A stretch of 64,000 bases of DNA, from contig OY727093.1 of NCBI GenBank assembly GCA_963402885.1, positions 27,775,409-27,839,408 on the forward strand, read 5' to 3'. Position numbers and translations under genes: made by a program. How positions within the stretch are numbered: position 1 is the first letter of the stretch; every line of letters starts with the position of its first letter. Below, piece by piece: positions 29,056 to 57,400 of the stretch. The DNA is from Antedon bifida. Taxonomy: Eukaryota > Echinodermata > Crinoidea > Comatulida > Antedonidae. Below the pieces are notes generated by a model. It saw only the letters and a list, made by a program, of their open reading frames with translations. It was not told the DNA's origin and made no database searches.

Positions 29056-29459
29056 TAAATTGATTTTGAATCTGTACTGAAAAGAAATGATTACGTTATG
29101 TTAGAAATATAATGAAAATACATTGACAGATCACAATGCAATGATAATTACAACTTCTCTGTACTGTCTGTAATATTGTATAGTATCATAGGCAAAGTCT
29201 AAGAAACAGTGTCTGGACGGCTATACGCCTAACTTAGCTTTGTTTTTTTTTATTTATTTAATATCATCTTTAATGAGGGTGCACCTATCCAGTTTAAAAT
29301 CTTTAAAATTGTTGATGGATAAAAAGTAAACTTATCTAGCAATAAATCGTTTGAGTTGAAGTTTAAAAGAGTTGGTATCAGCAGTATTCTGTTATTAGCA
29401 TGATACCCCGTCACATGTGATAGTAACTCTGTATTACAGAATTTGTTTATGACACTAGA

Positions 29460-48400: not shown

Positions 48401-51400
48401 GACCTAATGACCTATCTTTGAAACTTCATTGTTGTGTAATCTAATAGCGCTAGGTAAGAATGAAAATGTATGTCTATTTGTTTTAACTGGGATTGTTGTT
48501 AATCTTCCAGATCTGGTAACTACTAACTTATTGTTGAGAATATGAGATTCATCAGCTAAAATACTATTTAATTTAGAATTAGAATCAAAGGGAAAAAACC
48601 TGATCTCATTCGTCCCTTTGTGATGAGCTAGCAACATCAACGTTATGTTAATAACCAAATTCAAATATTAAAGATAAATGCAATCCAATTCAATTATTTT
48701 CCATAAAGACATATAATACAAAATATATATTTAATACAAAAATGTTGGGAACATCAGTAAGTCTGCCGGATTGTAGAAAAGTGATCAAATTACTATATGT
48801 ATATACTCTTCTTCTGATGCAGAACAATTTAAAAAACAATTTAACAATTTTAAAAAGGGGGCAGGGAAATACAAAAAAACATATAAAACCTGTGACTTGG
48901 AAAGGTAATACAACAAGGAAATGAAATAAAAATAGAGATGCGATGGTACGGAAAGCTAATTTATTATTTCTATGAGAAACTAGACTACTTACCACAACCA
49001 ACTTCATCTTCACCATTGTCACAGTCCTCATCGCCATCACACTGCCAGCGTAGAGGTATACAAGAGGAATCGCTACATTGGAACTCGCCTACACCATCAC
49101 ACTGTTGGTTACCTAATTTAAAATAAACAGTAATCAAACGTAAGTACAGTAATTTCAAAATTGATAAATGTACAGTATACTACATAGAAACACCAAATTG
49201 GCATTCAGTTTGCCTGACTGGCATTATTTTTTTCCTATGAGGTTAAGGCAGAAATCATGAATAATGCATTACCTAATACATTATTTTCTATAATAAAACC
49301 AAGATAGCTGATCTACTTCCTAAATATACTTAACCTAACCCTCTAAATAATCTTGATTATGGAATACAAATGTGTTAAGGTTAGGTTATTGACTTACTAC
49401 AATAATCTGGATTTTCATCACTGTTATCTCTGCAGTTGTCATAGCCATTGCAGAAAGCATATGAAGGTATGCATCGGTAGTTAGTGGTACAAGGCTGCCA
49501 TCCCGGTTGACAAGTTGCAGACTCTGCAAACAAGAAAATTAAGAAGAAATCCATTTTAATTTACAAAAAGATATTTTGTAGGTGATATTATTTGATATGG
49601 TTTTAACATTTAGCGCTTAGATTTTTATATTAATTATTCATTCTGAAGGTCAAATTAAAACATTCAAGAATAAAAACAAAGTTATTTCTACTGTGGTATA
49701 TTTCCTAATGTGTATCCTTTTTTATCTTAATCATATCGAAAATTTGTCCTCTCATAACAAGAAATAGTGTTTGGCTGTGTTATACATTAGTGGTTTTATT
49801 TTTCATTTCTCTATTTAGTAGAGTAGAACTAATGAAAAAAAGGGGCCAACCTCAAAAAAATTGCAACAAAAGGTTTTTCAACGGATTTTGGTAGTATTGG
49901 GTGTACTAAATAACAGAAAAAAAGTCTCAAGAATTTTGACCACCGGAAAGTGTTTTTTTTTCAAGATGGCCGCCAAAATAGATAAAACGTTAAAATGTCA
50001 ATACCTCCTAAACTACTTGGTCTATTGATATGATTTTGGTACCAAAATACTCAGAACATACATATTTATATTTGCCCTAATAGAACATTTTGGCCAAAAA
50101 TGACCGGAAATGCTATTTCTTGCATGTTTGACCTTTGACCTTGATATGTTGTATCTTGGTAACAACTGACCGTAGGGAAACAAATTGTGACTCAAATTGT
50201 TCAGAATGTACATATTTACATTTATTGTAATGAGACATTTTGTCAAAAAATGGTTAGAAGTAAAGGTTATTGACCTTTAACCTTTATCTATGTAGAATGT
50301 CCATATCTCGGCAACTATGTGTGGTAGAGATTTAAAATTGGGCTCTAAATACTGAGCATATGCTTATTTATATTTACTCTAATGAAACAGTTTGACAAAA
50401 AATGACCAGAAACGACATTTTTTGATGATTGACCTTGATATGCTATATTTCGATAATGACTGACTAAGACATACTATTTATGGCTCAATTTGTTCAGAAT
50501 ATAATTATTTTTATTTCGTATAATGGTCTAATCTACCCATGGAATTAAGAGCTTTCCTGGGTAACTGTAATATTTATAAAGACTTTTAGAATATGAGTTC
50601 AAGTTCAAATTGTTCAGAACATACTGTATACATTCTTAATAATAATAGTGAATAAAAAACCCGAAAAGTAAACAAAAACAAATATAATAATAATTTTTAA
50701 TTTCTAATTACGGTATAGCAGCAGTTGATTGGATATTGTGCATGTATTTAGTACGGCTTCCTAAACAACTTTTTTAACTTCGTCTTCATCATCGTCATCA
50801 ATCTCTCTATCTACGTTGTTCCATTCTTCTAGTTGACACACTCCCCAAACTGAAGTACATGCCAATCCATAGCATCTACAACTGCAACATACAGTTTTAC
50901 ATCCAGTAGTACAGTTACAATGGATGATTTTCAAAAGTTCTTCTGAAGCAGCAGTTTCAATCGTCATTATTGGCACAAATGTTTTATTAAAAACTTCCCC
51001 GACTTGGTAGCATCCATGGTATTATCTTTCTTTATCCATTGCATGATTTGATAGTATACTCTAAGACTGTGACATTTTGTAGCAGATGAGGTTGGTGGTA
51101 GTAGTTGTTGAGGTTTGATAAATTATTTACCCTCAGCAACTTTCTTATTAAACAGCTTGCATCTGTAGCTATTTGGGAAATCCAGTGACTTGGCTCCAAA
51201 ACGAATAGACATGGCCTTTAATCCAAACTCCTCGATAGTTTGAAATTTCTGATGCGGTTGAGTGAAACTATCGGCACACATCAGTGTCATATTCTAGGTT
51301 ACTTTCTATCAATTTATTGATTTATTTGCCTTCCTAAAGATGTCTTTAGGCTTTGAAGAGTGAGGGTGGAAACGGACTTGATATTTCATTACATCGTCTA

Positions 51401-54400
51401 GAGAGATTTGTCCTAACTGAATTTGATGGAAAGAAAGAAGAATTCCTGTCAAGGCATGAGAACAAACACAAATTTATCAACATGCTTTCATATGAGCTAT
51501 AGAAAAAAGAGTGGAGTTGTGGCTTGATGGTTATGATGCTTGGCTACCACTCCAAGGGTCCTGAGTTCAAGTCCCGTCACATGTCAGGATTTTTTCTAAG
51601 GACCAAATTACTCCACTCCCAAAGACTTGTAATAAGACTTTGTTTACGTAGAGCATCTTGTGTATATGTTTGTCTTGTGAACCTCTGAGGGTCCCTAATG
51701 ATCAGCAATAGCTGGATGGATCACCCTCATTAAATATGGTTTTAAAAAAAACAAAAAAAACGATGTTGACATTGCTCTGGCAACAGTTGAAGTCTCTGAA
51801 CATAATACAGTAACTTTGATTGGAGAAGACACGGACTTACTGGTACTTTTACTGTATCATGTAAATACAACAAACCGAGAAATGTACTTCAGATTAGACA
51901 AAGGAAAAGATGGGCCTACTAGAGTGATTAATGTAACCAGATTGAAATCTGTTTTAGGATATAAAATCATCCATTGTAACTACTGGATGTATGTTGCAGT
52001 TGTAGAAGCTATGGATTGGCATGTACTTCAGTTTGGGGAGTGTGTCAACTAGAAGAATGGAACAACGTAGATAGAGAGATTGATGACGATGATGAAGACG
52101 AAGTTGGAACAGTTGTTTAAGATGCCGTACTAAATACATGCACAATATCTAATCAATTGCTGCTATACCATAATTAGAAATTTAAAAGTTATTATTATAT
52201 TTGTTTTTGTTTACTTTTCGGTTTTTTATTTACTATTATTATTAAGATTGTATACAGTATGTTCTGAACAATTTGAACTTGAACTCATATTCTGAAGGTC
52301 TTTATAAATATTACAGTTATTTGATTCCCAGGAAAGCTCTCTATTTCATAAGTAGATTAGACCATTATACGAAATAAAAAATAATTATATTCTGAACAAA
52401 TTGAGCCATAAAAGGTGTATCTCAGTCAGTCATTATCGAAATGTAGCATATCAAGGTCAATGGTCAAACATGTCGTTTCTGGTCATTTTTTGTCAAACTG
52501 TTTCATTAGAGTAAATATAAATAAGTATATTCTCAGTATTTAGAGCCCAATTTTAAATCTCTACCACACATAGTTGCCGAGATATGGAAATTATACACAG
52601 ATAAAGTTAAAGGTCAATAACCTTTACTTCCAACCATTTTTTGACAAAATGTCTCATTACAATAAATGTAAATATGTACATTCTGAACAATTTGAGCCAT
52701 CATTTGTTTCCCTACGGTCAGTTGTTACCAAGATACAACATATCAAGGTCAAAGGTCAAATTGTCAGAAATGGTATTTCCGGTCATTTTTGGCCAAAATG
52801 TTCTATTATAGCGAATATAAATATGTATGTTCTGAGTATGTTGGTACCAAAATCATATCAATAGACCAAGTAGTTTAGGAGGTATGGACATTTTAACTTT
52901 TTATCTATTTTGGCGGCCATCTTGAAAAAAAACACTTTCCGGTGGTCGAAATTCTTGAGACTTTTTTTCTGTTATTTAGTACACTCAATACTACCAAAAT
53001 CCGTTGAAAAACCTTTTGTTGCAATTTTTTTGAGGTGAAACCTTATTTCTACTCTACTAATTGAAATACAGTCAATGATACCCACAACATTATCATTTTC
53101 AGTTGCCTTTGGAATAATACAAATAATAAATTTTGAGATCAAATTAAATTAATAGGTTTAATATGGCCTTGGCATCTCTGTGTATTATTTTCAAATGAAT
53201 TGTCACACTTACGACAAGTACTGTGCGGTTCATCACTTCGGTCGCCACAATCATCATCAAGATCACAAACCCAAGAGTCAGGAATGCAGAAGCCATTATC
53301 ACACGTAAAATATCCATCTTGACATTCTCGACCTAACAGACAAATACATTTTTTATTATTAATTAAAGAGAGGAAAGCTGTGAGAGTGAAAATGTTTCCA
53401 CTAACCGAGAAACAAATAATTTTAGTTTATACCACATACATAGATTCCAGTGGCTGTATTCACCATTCACGCTTAGGCTAAGGGAAACACCTTAAAATTA
53501 AACAAATCTCCTATCTAAATCAATACAATTTATGGGAAATACTTATTTATTGAGTTAAGTGAAACTTAAGTGTGACTGGTGAATACAGCCACTGGCCTCT
53601 GATTTGTATGATAATTACAACCATAATTATCTCCAGTAAAAAAAAAATTCCCCATTTTCTAGGCCTAAAGAATTAACTGCTGCCTTTACAGCGCGAGAAA
53701 GGTTAAACAAAAAATGGTTATACTATGGACGAAAACAGTACTGCTTATAATTATACAGTGTAAGACTATTTTTGGAAAATTAGCAGGTGAGATTTATACT
53801 CCGATTGCATGGATGTATTTACCTAAGTCTTGTAACTAAATTCAGCATAAATTAGGATGTATGATTATATCCGAGCATGGAATACAGCAGTATTTTTCAC
53901 AATAGATTACTTGAATAACAAATTACTCACCCATACATACTGAAGAAGCCTCGTCTGATCCATCAGTACAATCATTAGTCTGATCACAAACATTTCTCTG
54001 TTCAATACAATTACCTGTGCTACATCTGAACTCCCATGGACTACATTCAGATGCGTCTAAAAATATAAACAATGACATTTGAACTAGATGAAGATGTTTT
54101 AATGTATGGAAGCTCTGATAACGGGATGGACATAAATAGAAGAAAAAAAATTGGAGGGTACTGTGTATATATTTATTTATAGTTTTGTTTGCATCTAATG
54201 CCAAAAAGGATTGAATCCAACAATGGGGCTGATCTTAATCTAAAGTCCTATCTTTTGTATTATAATTTCCAAAGTTTAGGGGGGAAGGCTAGCTGGGCAT
54301 GCCTATGCCAAAAAATCCCTAAAAGAGTGTCATTGACTATGACCCTACCAGAATAAACCCCACATCAGCTTAAACTGCAATTATTGTTCCCACAACTCCC

Positions 54401-57400
54401 ATATCATTCCTTTGCATCATCTTTTTTTTTGGTTATCCTAAGATATTTCATGAACAGTTTTGTGTGCAAAGCGCTTTGTATAATGCGCTGTAAAAGACAA
54501 TCATTATTATTATTATTATCTTACCACAGCCAGTTTCATCGCTACCATCTGTACAGTCATCCTCTCCATCACAAACATACGTGGGAAAAGTGCATTCTTT
54601 ATTGGCGCAGGTGTACAGACCAGGAGAGCAGGAAGGCGGTGCTGAAAACAAAAAGAAAAACTTAAATGCCATAGAAGTAATATTAAACTAGAGAGTCAAC
54701 TAATCAGTGGCTATAACTCAGGGGCCCCTGAGTGTCCATAGCACAAGTTTTGAATAAAATAATAATGATCAATTTGTCAACTGATCCAGTGAGTTAAAAA
54801 CTTACGACATGTGGCCGGTTCATCTGATCCGTCCTTGCAGTCTCGCTCACCATCGCACTTCCAGTAGCTGGGTATACATTTTGTGGCATCATTGCAATGG
54901 AATTGTTGGTTTGTACAATTTTCAAGACAGGTTTTTCCATCGGCTTTCAGTACAAAGTTATCTGGACAAGCACAGGTGAAACTCATAGCTCCATTAACGC
55001 CAATGGCAGAAATCAAACACAGATGAGTGCATCCACCATTATTATTACCACAGGGATTAATTATACCTACAAATAAAATTATGATTACACAAATAAGTTT
55101 AAAAATAGAGAAAAAACAACCTGCATGAAAAGTTTGGGGATGGGCTTATACCAGAGTTAGTTACTGTTACTGGTTACTGGTCCTGTGAACAGGTGTGGTC
55201 GTACGTAGGTCGCTTTATAATTGAACATTCCACCAGAGTTAGTACAGTACAGTACTATATTTTTTTTTAGTAAAATGGTCATCATAATATATACTGTAAT
55301 AACAATAGGTGTGAGGTATAACTTTCTTTGGTACTGTAATTATATATATAAATATAAATCCAAAGGCAAATTACTGAAAAAATGACAATGCTGTGGGTAT
55401 CAGTGGCTGGATCTCAATGGAGATACAAAAAAAAAGCGAAAAGCTAAATCAAAATGATAAAGTAAAACAGCCAGAAAAGTTAGCAGAGCTTTCGGGAAAC
55501 TATATATATATACTTTGTTTTTAAAATGTTGAACTAAAGACAGTATTGCTACATACACTTTTTTTTTCATCAACAACTGGTTTGATTATAACATTTTCCC
55601 TCACTCACCCAATTTTTTTGTGTCTTATTGAATTTTTGATTTTATAAATATTTATTTGAAGCGACTTACTTGGATCTTGTCTTAATTCATGAACAATGTG
55701 AATGTCCATTGGACGATGTATGGTACCCCCGACCTGAGTGTAGTTTCCGCCAAGCAGTTTATCAACTTTGTTAATAGTTTTTGTGTTCCAATCGGTCCAA
55801 TAAAGTGTTTCTTCAAAAACAGTTATGGCAAATGGATGACTTACGAACGTTGACAGGAATCTAATGTCGGTTCCATCCATGTTTGAGTAACTGCAAGAAT
55901 TATTTTTTAACAACAAAATTAATAATTATGATAACTTGTTTTAAAGACTTGCATTAAACGGAATACATGATCCACTATTTTATCTGTTTCATTATGGTTT
56001 TTTTTATTTAAAAAAAGTTAATACATTTCCAACAACAAGCTACATTAATGAATGGATAAACATATCATATCTACAAACTATGTCATACTTGAGGCATAAA
56101 TTAAGGAGTGGGGTAGTTTAACAGTCAGGAGTAATACAACACTAGGTCAGGATTGAACCCTGGGCATTGGGATTGGAATACACATAGTACCCACCAAGTT
56201 ACCACATTTCAAAACACACAGCAAACTTAAGATAAGAACTTAATTTATAGGCAAAATCTTGTATTAGACTAATAAGGACTAATTTGATTGCTAGAGAAAA
56301 TCCTGGTAGTGAATATAGCTAAGGAATTAATCCAAGCATCTTAAAACTGTTAAAACTAGTGACTTACCCAATATGGTTAAGATGGGCATCGACCCAGTAG
56401 AGCTTATTAGTTGTGTAGCAGATGGTGAGACCATTAGGCCACACAAGCTTGTCAGAGTGGATTTCAGTTGCGTTGCTACCATCCATACCTATTTTACCAA
56501 TGTAACTGCTTAACCCCCAATCTGTCCAGTAAACGTGTCTGAAATACAATAATATATAAATAATGAATGAGGAGTGAATAGAAAATAACATTTTTCAACA
56601 AATTAAAACAGTCTTACCATTCATTCAGAAATAATGTATCTTGTATTGCCAACAAAAACAACAATAATTGACAAATGGTGATATAATAAGGGTCTATAGC
56701 TATTTAGCTAATTAAATCTTAATACAAATGAAAATAAGTTTATTAATTGTTTTATAACACACCTACTACAGAGGCGGATACATGATCTTTTAAATAGCCG
56801 GGGAGTGCTTACATAATAATTATTATTCTGTCTGTCAATAAATAGTTCATAGTGTAGCTATCAAAGGGGGTAGGCGCTTAAGTTGTGCGTCTCTCTCTCT
56901 CTCCTATAAATAAATAAATCCTTTAAACACAGTTTCCTTTTGTCTTAGATGTAGGTACAGTTCTATGTGGGGTAAAGCGCATATCTATTTATATCCCTGG
57001 ACAGAATAGCTAAATGAATCTTACCCATTCTTTGGATCAACAACAACAGCTCTGGGTGAAAAGAGGCCTTCTCTTCGTAGTGTTTTCCTTATCGAACCAT
57101 CCAATTCTGCAACCTCTAATACGTCTTGAGCATGATCCACCCAGTAAACTTTCCTTCCAACCCAGTCAATTGCTAAGCCTTCTACGTTACCTACGTATTG
57201 ATCCAAAATAGTCTCAATTTCACCACTACCATCCATATTCATACGATACATCCTGTCTGCTGAAATGTCGGCAAAGTAAATCCTGCCCTCTGTCAAATCA
57301 TAATCTAAGGCCACTAAATTTTCAAAGCCATCTCTTACAAGACTTTCCACATGTGCATCCACTGTGATGTTACGAATATAGTAACGGTTGCTAAACAATA

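Follow-up and report, generated by a model that had tools for sequence, protein, structure and literature searches.

A recently mobile foldback transposon, probably of Academ type, in an LRP2-like intron of the crinoid Antedon bifida

An intron of an LRP2-like gene in the crinoid Antedon bifida contains a foldback element that is a real DNA transposon, dispersed to dozens of genomic sites, some of them reached very recently. The element was found in a 64,000-nt stretch of DNA (assembly GCA_963402885.1, contig OY727093.1, forward-strand positions 27,775,409 to 27,839,408), here called the window, where it occupies positions 49816-53059 (3,244 bp) with an ATT at each side. The most likely explanation, in our view, is a non-autonomous foldback that has recently been mobile, probably belongs to Academ (AcademX) and arose through mirror-image copying of the 3' end of its gene. 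On sequence comparison, the inner part of the arms corresponds to the 3' end of a transposase-like gene, and the outer part to sub-repeats like those that follow the stop codon of a relative elsewhere in the genome. Contigs of the host genome are labelled C7, C8, C10, C11, C12 and C14, and individual loci from it L followed by three digits.

The two arms aligned in inverted orientation with 92.9% identity over the 1,092 columns of one blastn alignment and are separated by a core of 1,031 bp. The aligned arms and ends differ by 35 transitions, 21 transversions and 39 gap columns. Outside the arms, the left side consists of a 13-bp end (TAGTAGAGTAGAA) and a 20-bp spacer, and the right side of a spacer of 10 bp followed by the 13-bp end in inverted orientation. 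The arm sub-repeats are overall 61-78% alike across at least 53 nt, and Tandem Repeats Finder gave no report of them. The element thus has kilobase inverted arms, sub-repeats inside these arms, target duplications at its dispersed copies and only broken transposase-like fragments, as in foldbacks with long terminal inverted repeats (TIRs). An earlier note on this DNA had drawn inverted arms of ~1.1 kb around a core of ~1 kb, and both lengths are borne out; its bounds (49815-53060) were correct to within one base, and the identity of the arms is far above the 70% below which it would have given up its reading. The note was also right that the arms, being in the kilobase range, are too long for a miniature inverted-repeat transposable element (MITE) and that the core carries no intact transposase, since only broken gene fragments were read there. 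MITEs are usually <600 bp (PMC3573991), a size exceeded by all 44 of the copies paired below.

Mobility is demonstrated by the distribution of copies. When window 49815-50300 was used as a DNA query against the host genome (315.6 Mb in 27 contigs), 80 matches were returned, with 40 of 1,460 candidates scored. Twenty copies were read over 8 kb each, comprising the 17 best-scoring and three of the lowest-scoring among the 40, a choice weighted to the best-scoring copies and hence one that biases copy identities upward. Letter-by-letter alignment of the window element with 17 of these 20 copies, omitting L047 (which is without a 3' end) and L048 and L049 (a rearranged form), showed six of the 17 to be identical to the window element over all 3,244 bp, and 22 of the 153 possible pairs to be identical. 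A 28-base 5' pattern (≤3 mismatches) occurred at 46 places in the genome and a 26-base 3' pattern at 48, against no matches for backward-read controls of either; these ends pair within 12 kb into 44 elements of 2,480-3,685 bp, 19 of which are exactly 3,244 bp long, which supplies the genomic copy count that the earlier note had proposed. Two 5' and four 3' ends are unpaired; of the latter, two were read, one being a scrap of 120 bp (L063) and the other probably matched by chance (L064). Flank-to-flank comparison among the copies gave 27 matches at E 1e-5, those longer than 150 bp being exclusively between the two flanks of L033, which lies in a repeat array, and none between different copies; over the 40 bp adjoining the element the best agreement between copies was 18 of 40 positions. 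The presence of letter-identical copies at other loci therefore indicates recent movement and argues against an assembly error, and the suspicion that one arm might be artefactual, which the earlier note had raised against itself, does not hold for an element whose same 3,244 letters recur in six of the 17 aligned copies. Contig C8 (35.4 of the 315.6 Mb) carries 12 of the 44 paired copies where ~5 are expected by length. Separately, a tandem array with a 37-bp unit at C7:22839362-22840484 includes the exact 13-base end, with 30 sites among the matches listed.

Insertion of this family duplicates three bases. A 3-bp direct repeat flanks 21 of the 21 copies with both ends and also L062 (TAT), giving 22/22 among the 23 read, the other being L047 without its 3' end; no longer duplication was present in any of the 21 copies (lengths to 8 checked) or in L062. 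A TA target duplication, as first read from the flanks, was ruled out since 3 bp beyond the TA are repeated: the TA at the ends is part of the element and the duplicated bases sit outside it. Unoccupied relatives of two insertion sites carry the 3-bp target once, namely units of the array surrounding L033 (89-92% identical) and, for the window insertion, two members of an older dispersed repeat, one in the window (55353-55435, 77%) and one in L042 (276-337, 78%). The window foldback is inserted in this older repeat, an unoccupied copy of which lies ~2.3 kb away in the same window. Neither the TA duplication outside inverted repeats of Tc1/mariner elements nor the 8-10-bp duplication of Mutator foldbacks was found.

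The core and the inner parts of the arms hold broken gene pieces, those on the left being antisense and those on the right sense. A protein search of the host genome with a 66-aa piece yielded 53 matches (69 of 69 candidates scored), of which 49 were at foldback loci by our own count, and a distant match lay within a 1,552-aa open frame on C10 (L052/L053). This relative is an element of 6,023 bp with ends TAGTCTGGTAGTTGAA, flanked by a 3-bp duplication (TTG on the gene strand, CAA on the other); when it is removed together with one 3-bp copy, a single open frame of 42 codons spans the insertion site. From motifs, its surroundings look to us like a decayed Helitron gene with the element antisense in it, a label that Pfam did not confirm: three frames upstream had no hit above cut-off (best PHAF1, E = 0.014), and those on the far side are disrupted. 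The minus-strand remnant of the window element aligned by tblastn to residues ~1386-1531 of the relative, numbered from its first methionine, and the foldback L051 holds residues 1230-1531 in one sense and 1427-1531 in the opposite sense. Downstream of the stop codon in the relative lie stretches with 70-80% identity to the arm sub-repeats, and matches to the sub-repeats are confined to that side of its gene; a 44-bp match near its 5' end involves a different part of the foldback arm. The relative also possesses an inner inverted repeat (122 bp, 91%), which starts at offsets of 33 bp on the 5' side and 23 bp on the 3' side; these offsets recur in the window element, L048, L051 and L062. Comparison of foldback and relative end by end, made without a shuffled control, scored 30 for 5'-5' and 32 for 3'-3' against 14 and 11 for the cross comparisons; because like ends score above unlike ones, both true termini seem to have been retained in the foldback.

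These features suggest the following genesis of the family. The ancestor would have been an autonomous element of ~6 kb in which a short inner inverted repeat began at the same offsets of 33 bp (5' end) and 23 bp (3' end). During repair after excision, a template switch at this inner repeat would have led to the element's 3' end being copied from the 5' end inward; the inner repeat would thereby have lengthened from ~0.1 kb to 1.1-1.5 kb, with loss of most of the gene and survival of both true termini. Copying of the 3' end in particular is proposed because the sub-repeats lie in both arms beside two copies of the gene 3' end. The new foldback would then have spread on transposase supplied in trans, and an insertion resembling a short interspersed nuclear element (SINE) together with deletions would have yielded the 3,244-bp form, the most recent to spread, one copy of which would have inserted into the LRP2-like intron. 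Three forms can be compared. L051 (3,455 bp, arms 95.2%) is without the SINE-like insertion, L048 (3,680 bp, arms 92.0%) contains it with its 5' flank intact, and the window form contains it with this flank deleted; this series suggests that the mirror-image duplication came first, the SINE-like insertion later, and the spread of the 3,244-bp form last of all. In L048 and L051 the duplex would include ~0.37 kb more of the gene than in the window form. In L048 and L049 the core is opposite in orientation to that of the window element, as if flipped by recombination between the arms. The features of the window element and its host intron are collected in Table 1.

Table 1. Features of the foldback element and its host intron, in window coordinates
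Feature	Position	Strand	Basis
Target-site duplication, left copy (ATT)	49813..49815	.	Flank comparison; older repeat around the insertion has a single ATT where unoccupied
Outer terminal inverted repeat, 5' end (TAGTAGAGTAGAA)	49816..49828	+	28-base pattern from here at 46 places, ≤3 mismatches
5' spacer, unmatched in other arm; resembles 5' spacer of relative L052/L053	49829..49848	+	End-by-end scores
Left arm (inner inverted repeat)	49849..50931	+	blastn, 92.9% to right arm
Diverged sub-repeats of left arm, ~150-bp period, 64-78% alike	49991..50525	+	Self-comparison of window
Broken 3' end of transposase-like gene, with stop	50815..51242	-	tblastn; inside arm only as far as 50931
Gene fragment	51350..51502	+	In L051, counterpart without the SINE aligns to relative from residue 1230
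SINE-like insertion, bounds approximate, missing in foldback L051	51508..51760	+	tRNA-like boxes by eye, A-rich tail
Broken gene 3' end, sense: DTDLLVLL motif, then Cys-rich tail in another frame	51762..52120	+	Frames 51702-52052 and 51980-52120; tblastn spans 51771-51890 only, Cys-rich tail read by eye
Right arm (inner inverted repeat)	51963..53036	+	blastn
Right-arm counterpart of ~150-bp sub-repeats	52379..52895	+	Self-comparison of window
3' spacer	53037..53046	+	End comparison
Outer terminal inverted repeat, 3' end	53047..53059	-	Flank reading; 3' pattern search
Target-site duplication, right copy (ATT)	53060..53062	.	Flank reading
Host intron, LRP2-like gene (GTAAGT...TTTGCAG)	49524..53212	-	Splice sites by eye

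Several smaller observations concern these features. A 51-column stretch in the tail of the SINE-like insertion has an 82% match to window 29242-29292, a second partial copy, and ARAGORN reported no tRNA in the window, the insertion included. Rfam gave three matches up to E = 1 (best 0.18), all far below gathering scores, and a search of a phage collection gave no match. Pfam searches with the gene fragments of the element found nothing above cut-off, and a PDB match of a single fragment to sortase (E 0.29) was taken as chance.

We searched the assembly for a full-length parent using a 132-aa C-terminal piece of L051, which gave 125 matches among the best 150 of 212 candidates. Matches of at least 68% fell, by our own count, at ~47 loci, made up of the 44 paired copies, two 5'-only copies and one locus on C14 (C14:9960881-9961990) that has both gene orientations and no recognised end; the remaining matches reached at most 57% (28 residues), 49% over 59 residues and 45% over at least 80 residues. 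The bare 13-base end occurred at 165 places, against 35 for a backward control, and no facing ends within 12 kb beyond the known foldbacks were seen among the first 100 of the 165 listed. A full-length close parent was not found in the assembly, in which no pair of termini lies further apart than 3,685 bp; either the parent is missing from the assembly, or its ends have changed, or a diverged transposase moves the foldbacks. Further long open frames of the transposase-like family occur, for example, at C10:3283645-3287760, C10:16999192-17002623 and C8:22178517-22182005. Among the best 32 of 571 candidates, such frames are 23-51% identical to the L052 frame, several being without stops, and closer but stop-ridden copies lie on C11 near 12.6 Mb. 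A search of viral contigs with the relative's protein left its peptide patterns unmatched.

The host intron is 3,689 nt long, or ~442 nt without the insertion, so that the element makes up 88% of it. We call the host gene LRP2-like because its exons, strung together, have LRP2 as their best PDB match; no full-length LRP1 was among the 60 rows listed, which makes the comparison with LRP1 an unfair one. In the predicted fold of the LRP2-sense strand, 1,044 pairs join arm to arm and the longest unbroken helices are 98 and 94 bp; its minimum free energy is -1856 kcal/mol, whereas three sequences with shuffled mononucleotides gave -632 to -666. Transcripts of the intron should thus fold into a long hairpin. 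Placement inside an LRP2 intron had been claimed in the earlier note and is borne out for an LRP2-like gene on the minus strand with GT..AG ends read by eye, and the long RNA duplex that it expected is supported as a prediction. Its interpretation holds in part, for the foldback in the intron, the arm length, the lack of an intact transposase and the predicted duplex; the ADAR editing and siRNA supply that it envisaged would be possible consequences of that duplex. Membership of a mobile family and an origin from the inverted end of a transposase-like gene had gone unmentioned. A second intronic copy may be that at L033 (C12:23352833-23356076), which lies just after a splice-donor-like GTAAGT in a leucine-rich-repeat-like exon array, the exons being read by eye. 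Near the exon upstream of the host intron there is a short inverted pair (window 53442-53475 and 53567-53600; 34 nt, 88%), perhaps a small MITE-like hairpin, whose microRNA matches are at chance level only.

A hairpin containing part of a transposase gene raises the possibility of a mobile counterpart of maize Mu killer, in which host read-through would produce a hairpin that is diced into small RNAs silencing the parent transposase. Mu killer is likewise an inverted partial duplication of a transposase gene with a kilobase hairpin and proposed transcription from a flanking gene (PMC3440606), and the Antedon element shares the inverted duplication of part of such a gene, a predicted intronic hairpin with part of the gene in its duplex and a parent that was not found in the assembly. 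However, in the window form the gene contributes only its terminal stretch to the duplex, along with what follows the gene, and the other full-length lineages, at no more than 45% identity over at least 80 residues among the best 150 of 212 candidates, are too diverged to be present targets. The recent spread of the foldback means that any silencing is incomplete. Mu killer is a MuDR-silencing locus with both ends from one side of its parent (PMC3440606), whereas the Antedon foldback is present in 44 copies, each with a 5' and a 3' terminus of its own, and its outermost 33 bp resembles the true 5' end and not the 3' end. The Mu killer paper moreover favours antisense transcripts over a long hairpin as the main agent (PMC3440606). 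We therefore regard the likeness, which is by analogy, as a reason to test silencing rather than as evidence for it, and the explanation itself as unlikely. Somewhat less likely, as a bolder form of the same analogy, is that an Academ element mirrored its transposase gene end while keeping working termini, so that a silencing hairpin became mobile and outlived its parent. If this were true, spread into host introns would have given the hairpin many promoters, and small RNAs would have removed the autonomous parent.

The assignment to Academ was weighed against other superfamilies. AcademX elements make 3- or 4-bp duplications and encode a nuclease (PMC10045372), and bivalve Academ elements have a mean length of 5,565 bp (PMC10294476). 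The foldback duplicates 3 bp in 22 of 22 copies, as does the relative, which at 6,023 bp is near the bivalve mean. Academ proteins have been described with an XPG nuclease domain; a region of the relative may be weakly nuclease-like. A C-terminal profile built from nine pieces in the host genome had five matches in PDB, namely the CXC protein lin-54 (E = 0.0006), three Exonuclease 1 entries and a designed protein (0.9), and the TCR/CXC family was matched by three of the nine members in Pfam (best E = 0.0007); judged from these comparisons, the CXC tail is the only clear feature of the C-terminal family.

Several results weigh against an Academ foldback formed by template switching. Pfam searches with 1,479 aa of the relative found nothing above cut-off, transposase families included (only DUF1441 at E = 0.049), and a PDB search with the same sequence gave no match. 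The Exonuclease 1 matches, in which the order of two motifs (VFDG..S.KE..RR and GCD..S...G....K) is shared, are weak (E = 0.19-0.21), and nuclease-type Pfam likeness is seen in one of nine members each for 5_3_exonuc_N (0.02) and XPG_N (0.14); plainly unrelated families match as strongly or more so (Elong-fact-P_C 0.0052, Peptidase_C2 0.015), which places the nuclease matches within the range of chance. Thus duplication length, element length and weak nuclease likeness fit Academ but are not proof of it. The gene remnant of the foldback is only 35-42% identical to the relative, and the terminal letters differ, for which reason the relative is a cousin rather than a parent; since the search for a parent found none, the template-switch step lacks a real progenitor for comparison. 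On balance, the relative is probably an Academ element and the foldback its non-autonomous cousin. The likeness to Academ/AcademX is judged on published descriptions rather than reference sequences, and the foldback differs from those elements in encoding no working protein.

An origin in another superfamily (Mutator, CACTA, Zator or Tc1/mariner) is similarly improbable to the Mu killer-like explanation. Mutator is the superfamily to which most foldbacks have been assigned (PMC4079207), Galileo in the P superfamily being one of the exceptions (PMC3573991), and Zator likewise makes 3-bp duplications (PMC10045372). Against such an origin, no duplication exceeded 3 bp in the 21 copies and L062, the TA belongs to the element, with the duplicated bases outside it, and the relative matched no Pfam transposase family above cut-off. 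Less plausible still is a function of the hairpin in cis on the LRP2-like gene, through ADAR editing, altered splicing or intron retention. The long predicted duplex within the intron would suit such an effect, but the window insertion is one of 44, is young, as its letter identity to other copies indicates, and has nothing to mark selection. An assembly artefact or local inverted segmental duplication, for which no supporting evidence was found, can be dismissed in view of the letter-identical copies at unrelated loci, the target duplications and the empty sites.

The closest systems to the Antedon foldback are Galileo and Tetris in structure and Mu killer in possible effect. In Drosophila, non-autonomous Galileo copies are almost entirely long TIR sequence (18-1,250 bp), which in some includes internal tandem repeats; TIRs extended by recruited internal sequence, several subfamilies and recent activity are described as well, with no functional transposase found (PMC3573991). 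Galileo copies with two TIRs thus share these traits with the Antedon foldback and provide a precedent for TIR lengthening by internal sequence; they differ in belonging to the P superfamily and in that chimeric copies have 7-bp flanks against 3 bp here (PMC3573991). The sequence recruited by the Antedon foldback, unlike that of Galileo, includes the 3' end of a transposase-like gene. The Tetris foldback of Drosophila virilis similarly has TIRs of up to 1,735 bp, ~220-bp internal repeats and a variable middle, with no transposase and no autonomous partner found, but it makes 8-10-bp duplications and is placed in Mutator (PMC4079207). No Academ foldback was named in the titles or abstract openings of the literature searched, which was a partial collection.

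Here we have characterized a foldback family of probable Academ origin, unlike the Mutator-attributed majority. The offsets of 33 and 23 bp common to the foldbacks and their relative suggest how an inner inverted repeat may be stretched while the termini are kept. The family is young enough to include letter-identical copies, and its 44 dispersed loci offer a means of asking what becomes of long intronic hairpins (editing, dicing or tolerance) and whether one that stems from a transposase gene acts to silence the parent element.

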